Shown here piece by piece: positions 4,146 through 33,859 of a stretch of 40,921 bases of DNA. This DNA comes from Candidatus Taylorbacteria bacterium RIFCSPLOWO2_01_FULL_48_100 (lineage in GTDB: Bacteria; Patescibacteriota; Minisyncoccia; Phycocordibacterales; UBA10002): the NCBI GenBank assembly GCA_001821135.1, contig MHSA01000013.1, positions 1 through 40,921 on the forward strand, given 5' to 3'. Below the pieces are notes generated by a model. The model made no database searches, was not told the DNA's origin, and worked only from the letters and a program-made list of their open reading frames with translations. The stretch's first letter is position 1; the number at the start of each line of letters is the position of its first letter. The translations under genes and the position numbers were made by a program.

Positions 4146-4355
4146 ATGAAAGCAAACGAAGTTGATGTTGCTGACGCCGTCAGAATTATAAGAGGTGATT
4201 GGACAAATCAAGTTGGAACGGTAACGCACAAAAGTGAGTTACTTTCAGTTTCTGGTGAGCAGCAAAAAGCCCTGCTTACAATTCGACTTGAGACATTTCC
4301 TAAATCAATTCAGAAAAACAATTTTGACATTGAAAAAATCGCCTCTGCTCAATAA
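4146..4355 (+). CDS. Hypothetical small protein
   Basis: 69-aa ORF with upstream AGGAA and an immediate strong terminator. Confidence 0.6.
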   Translation: MKANEVDVADAVRIIRGDWTNQVGTVTHKSELLSVSGEQQKALLTIRLETFPKSIQKNNFDIEKIASAQ

Positions 4356-4406
4356 CCCAGCACTTTTGATTTTCTAAGAAAATCAAAAGTGCTGGGTTCT
4401 TTTTTT
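4354..4406 (+). terminator. Rho-independent terminator
   Basis: Perfect 20-bp stem AACCCAGCACTTTTGATTTT/AAAATCAAAAGTGCTGGGTT with 5-nt loop, then a T-run. Confidence 0.9.
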
Positions 4407-5037: not shown

Positions 5038-5109
5038 GTTGTAACCGTTGCTGGTTGTGCATAGTTAAGATTATCTGGATGCCTACTGCACGCGCATACC
5101 GCTTTTATG

Positions 5110-5131
5110 CTAGTATTTTGCAAAACACTAG
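5110..5131. promoter_or_regulatory. Candidate operator: 22-bp near-perfect palindrome CTAGTATTTTGCAAAACACTAG
   Basis: One mismatched pair in 11; upstream of the HTH gene; a 21-nt inverted copy occurs at 5425-5445. Confidence 0.65.
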
Positions 5132-5183
5132 TATAGAGATTGGGCAAGGTGATATAATAAAGATAAGATGGTATGATAAAAAT

Positions 5184-5456
5184 ATGGCGCTTGAATACAG
5201 GAAAGTGGAGCGAATGGTGAAAGGTTTTGCGAATCATAACCGATTGAAAATATTAGAACTTTTGGAAGACGAACCGGAACTTTCTGTTGCTGACATTACC
5301 GAACGGCTCAAAATGGGTTATGAAAACGCTTCTGATCACATACGAAAAATTGCCATCGCAGGCCTCGTGATGAAACGCAATTCCGGTCCAAGCGTGCTTC
5401 ATCGGTTGACGCCTCGCGGCAGGTCTATACTAGTGTTTTGCAAAAAACTGCAATAA
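5184..5456 (+). CDS. ArsR-like winged-helix transcriptional regulator
   Basis: ANHNRLKILELLEDEPELSVADITERLKMGYENASDHIRKIAIAGLV, ArsR-type HTH; ATG at 5184 preferred over the 5055 start. Confidence 0.8.
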   Translation: MALEYRKVERMVKGFANHNRLKILELLEDEPELSVADITERLKMGYENASDHIRKIAIAGLVMKRNSGPSVLHRLTPRGRSILVFCKKLQ

Positions 5457-14583: not shown

Positions 14584-16539
14584 ATGCCGACTAAAAAACA
14601 AAACAAAACAAAAGAAGTGATAGAAAAGATATTCGGAAGCGGCGAAACTGTTTACGGACTCAAGGGGTTTGATGGTATTGATGTTTATACTTCGCTAGAA
14701 ATTACAGAAGACGAGCCAAATCGTTTTTATATTAAGGACTTATCGGGCGGCAAAAATCGCTTTGTATGGGACGACAAAAAACAACACGGCAAACCGGAAG
14801 AAATAGTCCGCCAATTGTGGATATATAAGTTGATAAAGCAATATGGATATCCCATTACGCGCATACATATTGAACACTCGGTGCAATTCGGCCGTGAGAT
14901 ACACGATAAGGCGGTAGATATCGTGGTGAATAAGAAAGATAATGTTACACCCTATATTCTCATAGAAGTAAAAAGCCCAACCGAGAGTAAGGGTATTGAG
15001 CAATTAAAGAGTTATCTCAACGCTGAAGGTTCAGAAATCGGATTATGGTCAAACGGCGCAAAGCGCGTCATTTTGTACCGCCCTTATCCGAAAGAGTTTG
15101 ACGATACCTTGCCGGATTTGCCGCAAGCAAACCAAACCATTGACGACCTTTTTGAAACAAAACGCACCTATTTTGAATATACTTCCACAAAAGAAAATCT
15201 CAAAGATGTTGTTGATTCAATGGAAGAACTGGTGCTTGCAAATGCTGGTGTAGATGTTTTTACGGAAGTGTTCAAGCTTATTTATGCAAAGATGTACGAC
15301 GAACACGAAGCAAAATTAAGCCGTTCCGAACACGAAGTGCATTTTCGTAAATATCGCGACCCGTCCAAAACATACGCGGTCATCAACGATTTATTTAAGA
15401 GCGCGATTAAGAAATGGCCCGGCACTTTTTACGAGCAGGAAAATATAAATCTCTCGCAAGAACATCTCTCAATCGTCGTGGGCGAGCTGGAACGCACTCG
15501 TTTGTTCGGCTCCGACCTTTCTATTATTGACGAAGCGTTTGAGTATCTCATCCCCGAAGTGGCGAAGGGGAAAAAGGGGCAATACTTCACGCCGCGCCAT
15601 GTTATTAATATGGCGGTCAGAATGCTTAACCCGAAGCCGAAGGAATATATCATAGACCCGGCGGCGGGCTCCGGCGGATTTCTTATCAGCGCGATGTATT
15701 CCGTTAAAGACCGACATCTGAACGGTAGCGAGGAATCTATGCGCGAATATGCAAAAGAATATATCTGGGGCATTGACTTTGCGGAAGAAATATCAAAGGT
15801 CTCCCGCGCGCTTATGCTTATTGCAGGAGACGGCCGCTCGCACTTGTTTAAGCTCAACTCGCTTGACCCTAGAGAGTGGCAGGGCGATGAAAGCCAACTT
15901 TCAATTTCGCGAGGTGAGCTCCAAAAACGCCTGCACAATATGGGGAGCACCGCTGACAATACCGAAAATAGAAAAACATTTCACTGTATGGATTTTGATG
16001 TTTTGCTCACGAACCCCCCGTTTGCTGGAGAGATTAAAGACCAAGGGATGTTGCGCCAGTACTTTTTCGGCAAAAAGAAAGGGAAGTTGGTTAATAAAAT
16101 TGAACGGCACATTCTTTTTATAGAACGCACACTGGATATGCTCCGCCCCGGCGGGCGCATGGCGATTGTCTTGCCTCAGGGCGTGCTTAACAATACCAAT
16201 ATGGAGTATGTGCGCGAGTACTTGTTTGATAAAGCGCGGATTCTTGCGGTGGTTGGGCTTCACGGCAACACCTTTAAGCCGCACACAGGTACGAAAACAA
16301 GCGTCATTTTTTTGCAGAAATGGTGGGGAGAGGCGGGGGAGCCGCAAGCCGATTATCCTATTTTCATGGCTGTATCAAAAAAGGCGGGCAAGGACAACTC
16401 CGGCGACTATATGTACAAAAAGGACGCAAGCGGGAAGGCGGTGCACGACGCAAAGTTTCGCAAAGTCCTTGACCACGACCTAGACAACATCGCCGACGGG
16501 TTTATCAAGTTTGCAAAGGAGCAAAAATTAAACTTCTGA
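14584..16539 (+). CDS. BcgI-like restriction-modification fusion: N-terminal HSDR_N-type nuclease domain plus N6-adenine methyltransferase
   Basis: HDKAVDIVVNKKDNVTPYILIEVKS (D..ExK), DPAAGSGGFLISA and NPPF methylase motifs; no helicase/translocase motifs. Confidence 0.88.
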   Translation: MPTKKQNKTKEVIEKIFGSGETVYGLKGFDGIDVYTSLEITEDEPNRFYIKDLSGGKNRFVWDDKKQHGKPEEIVRQLWIYKLIKQYGYPITRIHIEHSVQFGREIHDKAVDIVVNKKDNVTPYILIEVKSPTESKGIEQLKSYLNAEGSEIGLWSNGAKRVILYRPYPKEFDDTLPDLPQANQTIDDLFETKRTYFEYTSTKENLKDVVDSMEELVLANAGVDVFTEVFKLIYAKMYDEHEAKLSRSEHEVHFRKYRDPSKTYAVINDLFKSAIKKWPGTFYEQENINLSQEHLSIVVGELERTRLFGSDLSIIDEAFEYLIPEVAKGKKGQYFTPRHVINMAVRMLNPKPKEYIIDPAAGSGGFLISAMYSVKDRHLNGSEESMREYAKEYIWGIDFAEEISKVSRALMLIAGDGRSHLFKLNSLDPREWQGDESQLSISRGELQKRLHNMGSTADNTENRKTFHCMDFDVLLTNPPFAGEIKDQGMLRQYFFGKKKGKLVNKIERHILFIERTLDMLRPGGRMAIVLPQGVLNNTNMEYVREYLFDKARILAVVGLHGNTFKPHTGTKTSVIFLQKWWGEAGEPQADYPIFMAVSKKAGKDNSGDYMYKKDASGKAVHDAKFRKVLDHDLDNIADGFIKFAKEQKLNF

Positions 16540-16543
16540 TTAT

Positions 16544-17350
16544 ATGATTACACAGCCAATTCTTCCACAAGAATCCATAAAATTATTTATTGACGAATCG
16601 GGTACTGGGAATCCGCTCGACCTAACTTCCGATATTTATATTTTATCAGGTTGCGTGATAAAGAAATCAGATTGTCAGGATGTAAAAATTCGCGCCGACC
16701 AAATTAAATTTAAGTACTGGAATAAGACCAATATCATGTTTCATTCGCGAGAAATAGGAAGGCGGGATGGAGCTTTTTCAATACTGAAAGACGAAACATT
16801 GTCTAAACAGTTTCTTGCCGACCTTGAGAGTTTTCTTGCAGACCAGAAATTTAAAATGTTATTCGTTGTTGTGGATAAAGCAAAAGCAAAAAATGCTGGA
16901 TGGAACGAAGTAAAAGTATATAAAGATACAACCCTGCATCTTGTCCGGAACTTTTTACTTGCCCTTTTAGCCACTAATTCGAAAGGAGAAATTATCATTG
17001 AATCAGCAACCGCTACAAAAGATATTTATCTTTTGCAAGCTGTTGGATATTTTCTCGCATCCGGTATTGAAAGCATAAAAATTGATTATCAAAAGATACA
17101 AACATTGCTCACATCAATTTCATTTGTCACAAAACACAATAATGATATTGAAGAACAAATCGCTGACTTGTTTTGTTATGCTGCACAGCTGAAATATCAA
17201 CAAAAAGCAAAACAAAAGATTTCCGGTGGTATATATGAACAGATGATACTGCGAGCGTTTAATAGGTCGATTTTTAAAGTGCCACAATATGCCGGACCTA
17301 AAAAGGCTCGGTTTTTTGCTGGTCTAGAACCATTTTTGGTGATTCCATAA
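16544..17350 (+). CDS. DUF3800-family protein
   Basis: IKLFIDESGTGNPLDLTSDIYILSGCVI, typical DUF3800 N-terminus; located between R-M and S genes. Confidence 0.75.
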   Translation: MITQPILPQESIKLFIDESGTGNPLDLTSDIYILSGCVIKKSDCQDVKIRADQIKFKYWNKTNIMFHSREIGRRDGAFSILKDETLSKQFLADLESFLADQKFKMLFVVVDKAKAKNAGWNEVKVYKDTTLHLVRNFLLALLATNSKGEIIIESATATKDIYLLQAVGYFLASGIESIKIDYQKIQTLLTSISFVTKHNNDIEEQIADLFCYAAQLKYQQKAKQKISGGIYEQMILRAFNRSIFKVPQYAGPKKARFFAGLEPFLVIP

Positions 17351-17354
17351 AGGA

Positions 17355-17395
17355 GAAAAGCCGGATCGCGGCTTTCGCTCGCTCCCCGGCTTTTC
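17355..17395. terminator. Hairpin between the DUF3800 and S-subunit genes
   Basis: GAAAAGCCGG ... CCGGCTTTTC, perfect 10-bp arms; weak T-tract. Confidence 0.5.
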
Positions 17396-17457
17396 ATGTA
17401 AAAAGTGTAACATACGGACTTATAAAAAAGCAAGGGAGTGTGGATAACAAAAAACAT

Positions 17458-18795
17458 ATGGCTGTTTTCTCAATAATCAAAAAATCGGAACTTGAGGGCG
17501 CGAAGCGACTGGATGCGGAATACTACCAGCCGGAGTATTTGGATATTACATCAAAACTTAAAAATGCACGCGCAATAAAAACCCTTGCGTCAGATATTCG
17601 TTACGGATTGTATGTTGAGCCCGACTATCTAGACGAAGGAATAAACTTTATTCGCGCAATGAATACAACTAATTTTTGGGTTGATGGCGAAGTGCTCAAA
17701 ATATCTAACAAAAAAGTTCCAAGTGATTATTTCTTACACGCTGGAGATTGTCTTATTGTAAGAAGTGGAGCAAACACTGGTTTAGTCAGTGTAATTTATC
17801 CACGACTGGAGGGGTCAACTTTTGGTTCATACACGATACGAATTCGTTTTGACAAAGTAAATCCTTTTTTCGCTTCGGTTTTCTTAAACACAAGATATGG
17901 ATTTTTACAGACATTAAGATCACAGACCGGCGCAGCACAGCCGAATCTGAACATCCCAAACATTAAAGAAATCAAAATACCGGTTATCTCGGAACATCAA
18001 CAAAAAGATATAGAAAAGCGATGCATTGAAATTGAACGAGCAAGAATACAAAGCGAAATCTTATATTCCCAAGCGGAAAATTTGCTTTTGGAAGAATTAG
18101 GATTAAAAGATTTCACAGAGGAGCAGAGTTTATACACTGCCGTGAATTTCTCGGAACTCAAAGAATCATGCCGAATGGATGCGGAATATTTTCAGCTGAA
18201 GTACCGGAAAATCTATTCTCTAATTCGTGAGAATAAAGGAATAACACTTGGCGAAATTGCCACGCTCAAAAAAGGTTTTGAACCTGGGAGCGAAGCGTAC
18301 CAAGAGGATGGTAAACTGTTTATTCGCGTGAGCTCCGTCTCAAAAGATGGTATTACCGAAAAAGACCAGAAATATCTCAAAAATGATCTGTATCAAAAAT
18401 TAAAAAAGAATTATCAACCAAAAGTCGGTGAGATTCTTCTTACAAAAGACGCAAGTCCCGGTATTGCATATGCGGTGAAAGAGTCAATTGAGGGAGTGAT
18501 TTCTGGTGGCGTGTTGCGAGTTAAAATAAACGAGGATGTTGAATCGGAATATCTTACACTATGTATAAACTCTAAAATTGGACAATCGCAAGTTGAACGG
18601 GATGCGGGTGGTTCTATAATTAAGCATTGGAAACCGGAGCAAGTAAAAAGTATGCTTATTCCGATTTTACCCAAACCAACCCAACAAGAAATTGCCAAGT
18701 TGGTGCGAAAATCGCACGAAGCGCGCAAAAAAGCAAAGGAACTCTTGGAAGAAGCAAAACGCGCTGTTGAAACACTTATAGAAAGACAGCAATAG
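17458..18795 (+). CDS. Type I-like restriction specificity (S) subunit with two target recognition domains
   Basis: Two repeated RLDAEYYQPEY/RMDAEYFQLKY...TRD...IPIL-QQEIAKL units. Confidence 0.9.
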   Translation: MAVFSIIKKSELEGAKRLDAEYYQPEYLDITSKLKNARAIKTLASDIRYGLYVEPDYLDEGINFIRAMNTTNFWVDGEVLKISNKKVPSDYFLHAGDCLIVRSGANTGLVSVIYPRLEGSTFGSYTIRIRFDKVNPFFASVFLNTRYGFLQTLRSQTGAAQPNLNIPNIKEIKIPVISEHQQKDIEKRCIEIERARIQSEILYSQAENLLLEELGLKDFTEEQSLYTAVNFSELKESCRMDAEYFQLKYRKIYSLIRENKGITLGEIATLKKGFEPGSEAYQEDGKLFIRVSSVSKDGITEKDQKYLKNDLYQKLKKNYQPKVGEILLTKDASPGIAYAVKESIEGVISGGVLRVKINEDVESEYLTLCINSKIGQSQVERDAGGSIIKHWKPEQVKSMLIPILPKPTQQEIAKLVRKSHEARKKAKELLEEAKRAVETLIERQQ

Positions 18796-27967: not shown

Positions 27968-28015
27968 ACATCCTCCGTCTCCCTACGGGAGACACCTCCC
28001 TCAAGGGAGGATTTT
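27968..28015 (+). repeat. Double-hairpin repeat copy 1a
   Basis: ACATCC + GTCTCCC/GGGAGAC hairpin + CCTCCC-TCAA-GGGAGG hairpin + ATTTT. Confidence 0.8.
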
Positions 28016-28018
28016 CCG

Positions 28019-28052
28019 AAGCTCCACCTTTTAAGGGGGGTTGGGGGGATGT
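28019..28052 (-). repeat. Double-hairpin repeat copy 1b (short, inverted)
   Basis: Ends GGGGGGATGT; CCACC-TTTTAA-GGGGGG hairpin. Confidence 0.6.
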
Positions 28053-28060
28053 AAGAAACA

Positions 28061-28109
28061 ACATCTCTCCCCCTCGCTCCGCTCGGGTACTCCCCTCAAG
28101 GGGAGATTT
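28061..28109 (+). repeat. Double-hairpin repeat copy 2
   Basis: ACATCTCTCCCCCTCGCTCCGCTCGGGTACTCCCCTCAAGGGGAGATTT. Confidence 0.8.
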
Positions 28110-28135
28110 AATGAGGCGGATGTATAATTGTGTAT

Positions 28136-28489
28136 ATGCACTCTCGCCTACCCTACAATAAAAAACTGACACAAAGGGCGCGAGCGATGAGAACGGTAAG
28201 CACGCTGTCCGAAGTATTGCTGTGGAATCAACTTAAAAAGAAAAAATTAAATGGTTTACAATTCTATCGCCAATTTCCCATTCATAATTACATTGTTGAT
28301 TTTTACTGCAAAGAAATTAAGCTTGCAATAGAAATTGACGGCGCGATTCATCAAACAACACGAAAAGAAGACACATTCAGACAGCGCGAAATTGAGTCAT
28401 TGGGCGTTTCTTTTCTGCGTTTCCGAACATCTGAAGTTGAGAAAGATATTGGGAGTGTGCTCATTCGCATCAAAAACTTCTCCTCATAA
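28136..28489 (+). CDS. DUF559-family (Vsr-like PD-(D/E)xK) endonuclease domain protein
   Basis: LRxxSTLSEVLLWNQLKKKKLNGLQFYRQFPIHNYIVDFYCKEIKLAIEIDGAIHQ. Confidence 0.88.
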   Translation: MHSRLPYNKKLTQRARAMRTVSTLSEVLLWNQLKKKKLNGLQFYRQFPIHNYIVDFYCKEIKLAIEIDGAIHQTTRKEDTFRQREIESLGVSFLRFRTSEVEKDIGSVLIRIKNFSS

Positions 28490-28535
28490 TTCCCCCCTTG
28501 AGGGGGGTGCCGAGGTTTGACGAGGCGGGGGATGT
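28488..28535 (-). repeat. Double-hairpin repeat copy 3 (inverted)
   Basis: AATTCCCCCCTTGAGGGGGGTGCCGAGGTTTGACGAGGCGGGGGATGT, starting within the DUF559 stop codon. Confidence 0.8.
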
Positions 28536-28543
28536 AGAGAAAA

Positions 28544-28594
28544 ACATCCCTCCCTCCGCCTGCTGGCGGAGTACTCCCCTCAAGGGGAGATTTT
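28544..28594 (+). repeat. Double-hairpin repeat copy 4
   Basis: ACATCCCTCCCTCCGCCTGCTGGCGGAGTACTCCCCTCAAGGGGAGATTTT. Confidence 0.85.
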
Positions 28595-28635
28595 GTACGG
28601 TAGATGTGTATGTTGGATTTATATTCTGCAAATGC

Positions 28636-28663
28636 TTGACAATATATGTGGATATGCTATACT
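28636..28663 (+). promoter_or_regulatory. Sigma70-type promoter
   Basis: TTGACA-16-TATACT upstream of the 152-aa ORF. Confidence 0.8.
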
Positions 28664-28735
28664 GTACATAGACACTAGCACCTCAAAACGCTAGATGATC
28701 CTAACAAAAAGACAGAACTCTACAGAAAGAAGTGT

Positions 28736-29194
28736 ATGAAAAACACAATAAGCGAGTGGATGAAGAATGTTCAGATTGTTCGGAGTGTGAAAGCGCATCA
28801 AAAACATCTACAGGAGGTCGTGGACCATCTTGAATGGGAAAAGAAATCGGCCGAAAGCATGGTTGAATCCATGCAGAATGATGGTGTTGTAGTTTCCTAC
28901 GCCAAGTTGGTAAAGGATTTGGCTGAAGCCGGACAGATTGACGGCACCGACTACGAGGGATTACACATTCGCCTCCAACGGCAGATTTGCAGTTGCGACA
29001 TGCACAGCAGAGAGCAGTTTCGAGTCCTTACAGAATTTTTTCGGAATCGCGGTTTTGAACCCGAGAAACTGGTGGAGTTGTGGAACCAAGAGCATGCCGC
29101 GGCAAATAATGGACAGATTAGCCTACACACGGACGGGTTTTTGTTGATCGTTAATTGCGTTAAGATCCATGTGTTACTTGAGGCAACTTTGTAA
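28736..29194 (+). CDS. Hypothetical protein (152 aa)
   Basis: ORF bracketed by a clear promoter and terminator; GAAAGAAG upstream of ATG. Confidence 0.65.
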   Translation: MKNTISEWMKNVQIVRSVKAHQKHLQEVVDHLEWEKKSAESMVESMQNDGVVVSYAKLVKDLAEAGQIDGTDYEGLHIRLQRQICSCDMHSREQFRVLTEFFRNRGFEPEKLVELWNQEHAAANNGQISLHTDGFLLIVNCVKIHVLLEATL

Positions 29195-29209
29195 GCTGTA
29201 CGCTTCACC

Positions 29210-29239
29210 AAAACCGCAGACAGCGATGTCTGCGGTTTT
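29210..29239 (+). terminator. Rho-independent terminator
   Basis: AAAACCGCAGACA GCGA TGTCTGCGGTTTT. Confidence 0.85.
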
Positions 29240-29248
29240 ACTTTTCTC

Positions 29249-29295
29249 AATCCCCCTTTTAAGGGGGCACTCGCCGATGAGGCGAGGGGGGATGT
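29249..29295 (-). repeat. Double-hairpin repeat copy 5 (inverted)
   Basis: AATCCCCCTTTTAAGGGGGCACTCGCCGATGAGGCGAGGGGGGATGT. Confidence 0.8.
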
Positions 29296-32481: not shown

Positions 32482-32548
32482 TTTGTGTTATTTCCGGCAC
32501 CAGATGTCTGCAATTTAGACATCTGGTGCCGTATGGTATGATAACAAT

Positions 32549-33805: not shown

Positions 33806-33859
33806 ACCACCCCATCGCCTCGCGGACTCGGCACTCCCCCTTAAATAAGGGCGAGATTA
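33806..33859 (+). repeat. Double-hairpin repeat copy 6 (degenerate)
   Basis: ACCACCCCATCGCCTCGCGGACTCGGCACTCCCCCTTAAATAAGGGCGAGATTA, directly after the thrS stop. Confidence 0.6.

Follow-up and report, generated by a model that had tools for sequence, protein, structure and literature searches.

In the window, by which we mean the whole 40,921-nt stretch of DNA that was analysed, a DUF559 gene is embedded in tagged double-hairpin repeats, and units of the same grammar frame DUF559 genes in many bacterial phyla. The arrangement is probably a REPtron-like selfish DNA system in which a nuclease of the Vsr/EDxHD fold stands in place of the Y1 transposase and acts on its own flanking units. More broadly, the association suggests DUF559 as the enzyme behind widespread dispersed bacterial repeats. 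A sequence-only reading of the window had proposed a layout of the REPtron type, with a Vsr-like nuclease where a Y1 transposase would be expected, and had marked mobilisation as an inference; the proposal is supported by the conservation of the flanks, by the lower repeat numbers in relatives without DUF559 and by the separate palindromes found at Y1 loci.

The repeat unit is about 48 nt long and consists of an ACATC tag, a C-rich head, a first hairpin, 1–2 nt, a second hairpin (C-rich arm, TCAA-type loop and G-rich arm) and ATTT. The covariance model R1 was trained on five window copies (A, C, D, E, and F), which scored 59–66 bits each. The truncated copy B was recovered with 19.9 bits (E 0.002) though it was outside the training set. 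The sequence-only reading had listed seven copies in both orientations and had proposed a covariance-model search of this and related genomes. Six copies between rnhB and dnaE were confirmed by R1, in both orientations (Table 1), and the one at 33806 was unmatched at E<=1. Further copies in the same genome and in sister genomes matched with E values of 1e-10 to 1e-15; with such independent matches to R1, the family cannot be put down to the choice of the five training copies. Both hairpins covaried among 45 strong matches from three genomes: compensatory changes were present in 9 of 13 pairs (82 cells vs. 26.8 after shuffling), and the covariation score was 0.416 compared to 0.194 when shuffled and at most 0.18 when slid. 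The ACATC tag was found at the start of 59 of 61 copies. No Rfam matches were obtained in the window. The 645-kb genome contained about 13 strong R1 copies, about five of them inside 1.3 kb around DUF559, a clustering far from chance.

Table 1. Parts of the composite element (window positions)
Feature	Positions	Strand	Remarks
Whole composite element	27968-29295	+	three units, DUF559, two units, cargo ORF, one terminal unit; flanked by rnhB and dnaE
Unit A, with tag ACATC, C-rich head and both hairpins	27968-28015	+	R1 59.9 bits
Unit B, inverted; AA instead of hairpin 1	28019-28052	-	R1 19.9 bits, E 0.002
Unit C, left arm of inverted pair, tail facing the gene	28061-28110	+	R1 64.2 bits
DUF559 gene, 117 aa, intact	28136-28489	+	Pfam PF04480, E 3e-31
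Unit D, right arm of inverted pair; tail gives the DUF559 stop codon	28487-28535	-	R1 59.9 bits
Unit E, head-to-head with D	28544-28594	+	R1 66.4 bits
Promoter-like segment (TTGACA/TATACT)	28603-28664	+	87% identity to G006 L096 2736-2675
Cargo ORF, 152 aa, without known family	28736-29194	+	
Terminator-like hairpin 3' of the cargo ORF	29212-29241	+	read from sequence
Unit F, right end of the element, GATGT outward	29249-29295	-	R1 59.2 bits

DUF559 is framed by units C and D, which are inverted repeats with outward ACATC tags, and two head-to-head pairs are made by inverted B with C and by inverted D with E. The gene length given by the earlier reading is corrected from 118 aa to 117 aa (ATG start) or 119 aa (GTG at 28130). 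The overlap of a repeat with its stop codon was read correctly, and a stop codon inside a D-type unit occurs again in the homologous element of a sister genome, G006. That element spans 1165 bp from ACATC to GATGT (L124 303-1467), carries its own 156-aa cargo ORF and has the same order of parts. Unit F was 93.6% identical to the matching end unit of the G006 element, and the A+B pair shared 96.6% identity with a pair elsewhere in G006, which holds several copies equivalent to unit B. Unit E is missing in the G006 element, where a single GATGT replaces the two that flank E. The cargo slot (window 28603-29241; G006 L096 2150-2736) is occupied by unrelated ORFs of 152 and 156 aa, both with a common promoter-like segment before and a terminator-like hairpin after; the promoter-like segment is kept despite the different ORF downstream, as if the cargo were exchangeable. 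The window cargo ORF gave zero matches against Pfam, NCBIfam, and PADLOC. Apart from this family-less ORF, the element encodes only DUF559, with no known transposase or recombinase.

DUF559 is a large family with few functions assigned. The window gene is the sole member in its genome, and the invariant residues E28, D57, E68, D70, H74, and D81 (119-aa numbering) are kept in its product. The AF2 model of the protein (pLDDT 86.5) matched 3hrl, I-Bth0305I, and Vsr in the PDB; Foldseek E values were 1.9e-4 for I-Bth0305I and 0.09 (probability 0.90) for the weaker match to Vsr. A DUF559 profile search also retrieved 3hrl and I-Bth0305I by sequence. As modelled, the protein resembles a compact nuclease of the Vsr/EDxHD fold with intact putative active-site residues. 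At least some DUF559 members may have other roles, given the Caulobacter protein VsrA, which is genetically tied to DNA damage upon loss of a cytosine methyltransferase (PMC12907096). Two other assignments of the gene and its locus were rejected: a phage gene family (a single match among phages) and a defence system (weak PADLOC matches).

The G006 element separates def from a small conserved gene; the two genes are directly adjacent in the window genome (G000) and in G010. The empty sites that the sequence-only reading had proposed to look for are therefore found at the def locus, occupied in G006 and element-free in G000 and G010, as is characteristic of a transposon. The element-free locus of G010 (L125) reads AAACATCCGATGTTT, which is two unit tags back to back and a possible excision footprint, judging from the letters. 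The flanks at def have diverged, and neither a target-site duplication nor a clean junction was resolved in this comparison. In other genus members, rnhB and dnaE are neighbours without DUF559, separated by 111–403 nt or by about 1.2 kb with other DNA. Because the G006 copy is at def and the window copy is between rnhB and dnaE, the sites that it occupies in these sister species are not orthologous.

Unit pairs without the gene are scattered through G000, G006, and G010. Of 28 examined sites with a unit or unit pair, 15 are within open frames that extend for 60 or more codons to each side, and the unit-bearing proteins include those that we take, by eye, to be MurB-, UvrD-, ArgRS-, and kinase-like. 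A unit pair is inserted in frame into LeuRS of G006 only and is missing from LeuRS of the window genome and of G010. Between G000 and G006, pairs from different loci reached up to 97% identity, compared to an average of 74% for aligned genes. These observations support the mobility of both the element and the unit pairs.

The distribution of DUF559 is patchy: it was detected in 9 of 13 genus genomes and in 55 of 287 phylum genomes, with 1–7 copies in each of the latter. The relatives searched at the class, order, and phylum levels had genomes of 0.5–2 Mb; the 645-kb genome, of which the window is one contig, is likewise of a small, Patescibacteria-like type, and we read it as that of a candidate-phyla bacterium. 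On inspection, hairpin units bracketed 14 of 14 full-length DUF559 genes of the genus; their sequences are clade-specific, and the grammar is common. The CPR set had the unit grammar on both sides in 35 of 43 loci (control windows 1/70). A second set comprised 80 loci of GTDB species picked by likeness to the window DUF559 protein, including Bacteroidota, Acidobacteria, Proteobacteria, Cyanobacteria, Chloroflexi, Nitrospirae, Firmicutes, Fibrobacteres, Elusimicrobia, and others. Here the grammar was present on both sides in 52 and on at least one side in 76 of 79 scorable loci, compared to 1 of 118 control windows; in both sets, the grammar had been composed after inspecting loci, and the control windows, taken far from the genes, were mostly coding DNA. 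The sequence-only reading had made its proposal depend on conservation of the flanking repeats around DUF559 orthologues, and this was found in the genus, in the phylum, and in many phyla.

A comparison of own-locus with cross-locus flanks is independent of the unit grammar. When the upstream flank was matched to the reverse complement of the downstream flank at 43 phylum loci, the score was 39.5 for the own locus, 20.6 across loci and 18.0 for windows further out, and 0 of 10,000 permutations reached the observed value. For the 80 loci from many phyla, the corresponding values were 42.5 and 21.3 (own locus and cross-locus), again with 0 of 10,000 permutations. Units stood on both sides of the gene in 88 loci and were inverted in 76 of these, 68 being head-in and 8 tail-in. 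The window lineage is of the tail-in type, its gene lying on the tail side of the units, unlike most loci, in which it lies on the head side; a single fixed end-cutting rule therefore does not fit all loci. Across loci, DUF559 identity tracked the similarity of the flanking units (Mantel 0.37, 0/2000), a signal to which shared ancestry and lateral transfer contribute.

Copy numbers were compared with the presence of DUF559, since equal abundance of the repeats in relatives without the gene had been named by the sequence-only reading as an outcome that would speak against it. The repeats proved scarcer in such relatives within the genus, with 0, 6, 12, and 18 unit copies in DUF559-less genomes and 15–126 in the others (p=0.02). 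The 12–18 copies of G009 and G004, in which DUF559 was undetected, are as expected of relics, but also of passengers. Six of seven matched genomes across the phylum were DUF559-positive; R1 was rejected for phylum-wide unit counts as too lineage-specific (8 genomes matched). In E. coli, 3367 of 5403 genomes carry the DUF559 gene ycjD. Among evenly sampled genomes, the median number of other matching places was 17 in ycjD-positive strains (37 genomes, minimum 10) and 4 in ycjD-negative strains (23 genomes, maximum 15), a difference that follows phylogroup and is therefore only suggestive. E. coli O157 has about 12 units without ycjD.

In E. coli, BoxC/PIT/TM repeats were already known in the 1990s. 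In K-12, ycjD (1,351,407-1,351,760) has the unit grammar beside it, and the adjoining unit CCCCTCACCCTAACCCTCTCCC...GGGGCGAGGGG is the published TM-ECO copy 9 (1,351,204-1,351,239). A survey in 2015 reported 3610 TM-ECO copies in 262 proteobacterial genomes and a stable triplex formed by the single strand; its authors called the origin unclear, found no mobility functions near the repeats and mentioned neither DUF559 nor ycjD (PMC4666352). No papers linking DUF559 with BoxC/PIT/TM-type repeats were found in the open-access library searched. Two E. coli loci were rejected as insertion sites: fabI-sapF as an empty site of ycjD, since ycjD-negative strains carry the eef operon there, and tkt-ypfG (L091, L243-L246) as a clean junction, its flanks being replaced. 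Some strains carry a TM-ECO unit at this intergenic spot of tkt-ypfG, and others have a RAYT-type REP there as the alternative allele.

The substrate of the DUF559 nuclease would be its own flanking unit, made of the tag, the C-rich head, a spacer or hairpin 1, and hairpin 2. When single-stranded or extruded, the unit could fold into two hairpins or an intrastrand triplex, and DUF559 would recognise the folded unit and cut at or near the tag. Rejoining by host repair would be needed because a hydrolytic nuclease cannot rejoin strands, and repair would copy or re-insert the segment between two inverted units. If that segment included the DUF559 gene, an autonomous element would move together with its cargo; if it did not, an 85-105-bp unit pair would spread as a non-autonomous, REPIN/MITE-like element, often in frame in proteins. 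We infer DUF559 as the cutting enzyme, the cut position and the repair step. Cut-and-repair or homing-like copying is more likely than classical strand transfer. DUF559 is the most economical candidate for mobilisation because its catalytic domain is related to a mobile-DNA nuclease and because it is almost constantly framed by its own repeats, and we lean towards the view that this nuclease itself moves them.

Alternatively, DUF559 could be a passenger, with the units moved by another enzyme, such as a RAYT-like Y1 transposase, or by recombination and replication slippage. RAYT-like Y1 genes are indeed present in 12 of 13 genus genomes, including the window genome, and Holder et al. attribute TM variability to replication stalling. 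However, the Y1 loci of the genus are framed by palindromes of other kinds and lack strong type I units in their vicinity, so that RAYT was rejected as the mover of the units. Moreover, a passenger would give neither cognate units at 76 of 79 scorable loci nor the tracking between DUF559 and unit sequences, and we regard this explanation as unlikely. The only Y1 gene of the window genome (G000:C5:2181-2402, L156) is accompanied by the palindrome CTGTGAGAAGC...GCTTCTCACAG, and this small genome may house two systems of repeat and nuclease.

Other repeats were noticed in the window. A perfect palindrome, CGGCACCAGATGTCTGCAATTTAGACATCTGGTGCCG, lies between dnaE and thrS (32494-32532), and its identical core was found at two G006 sites (L096, L103); it is another dispersed REP-like family, possibly that of a RAYT-like gene. 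A 33-nt inverted pair (5105-5137 and 5424-5456) is placed around a regulator-like ORF of 133 aa (start 5055), and positions 4351-4401 contain an almost perfect hairpin of 25 bp with T's after it. Positions 14584-18795 read like a type I restriction-modification cluster with a methylase-like ORF (14584-16539), a specificity-like ORF (17440-18795) and an unrelated-looking 268-aa ORF between them.

Slightly less probable still than the passenger reading is one in which DUF559 serves the cell as a housekeeping or guardian nuclease, resolving repeat structures or taking part in Vsr-like mismatch repair, and is sited where the repeats need it. The predicted similarity to the Vsr fold and the work on Caulobacter VsrA (PMC12907096) fit such a role. 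Nevertheless, the patchy occurrence (55 of 287 phylum genomes), multicopy genes, presence or absence at a site and inverted units framing the gene are traits of a mobile element, and a guardian acting in trans has no need of flanking units. It is very improbable that a horizontally transferred gene simply carries these hairpins as its ordinary terminators or regulatory elements: units do lie near gene ends, and the DUF559 stop codon is within unit D, but inverted pairs also occur without the gene, units lie inside ORFs, the tag is conserved, and the E. coli units had neither promoter nor terminator activity in the earlier bench work as cited in PMC4666352.

If mobilisation by the DUF559 nuclease is true, it represents a second, RAYT-independent solution to the spread of short palindromic repeats. 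A further-reaching reading, to which we give slightly less than an even chance, is a new class of bacterial mobile elements with a single-domain Vsr/EDxHD nuclease acting on hairpin or triplex ends as the only mobility protein; such elements would have given rise to BoxC/PIT/TM repeats throughout bacteria, the 23 copies of E. coli K-12 among them, and YcjD would be the enzyme of that strain. The link between DUF559 and the repeats provides a testable role for DUF559 and makes an old repeat question answerable in E. coli K-12 (ycjD).

Among known systems, the homing endonuclease I-Bth0305I (EDxHD) and Vsr share the predicted fold of the catalytic domain with DUF559, which differs from them in being single-domain without added DNA-binding modules, located outside introns, and framed by repeats. 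Rickettsia palindromic elements are palindromic repeats found in frame inside conserved proteins; the in-frame insertions into LeuRS and other proteins are similar, whereas the sequence and the phylum are different, and we know of no nuclease associated with the Rickettsia elements. BoxC/PIT/TM-ECO repeats have in common with our units the C-rich head, the short spacer, the hairpin of C-rich and G-rich arms, the inverted pairs, and the two sub-types (TTA/CCG spacers in E. coli, hairpin/AA spacers here). The window lineage differs from them by the ACATC tag, 6-bp arms, and, mostly, a second hairpin instead of the 3-nt spacer. The ITxF definition (three blocks, loops of 1–6 nt) does not cover units A, C, D, E, and F, whose second spacer is a hairpin of about 18–22 nt; unit B alone has a 2-nt spacer. 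The REP/RAYT system is similar in having one nuclease gene in single copy with cognate, tagged palindromic units on its flanks, in its patchy distribution, and in the genome-wide dispersal of cognate units, often as inverted pairs, which was also found here. The differences are in the enzyme, DUF559 (PF04480) being a predicted metal-dependent nuclease of the Vsr/EDxHD fold and not an HuH Y1 transposase, and in the tag, ACATC (59 of 61 units) instead of a guide tag (GTAG/GT[AG]G) at the foot of the hairpin. Finally, REPtrons reportedly do not transpose as a unit (PMC6006769), whereas the whole DUF559 element is present or absent at a defined site and is located at different places in sister species.
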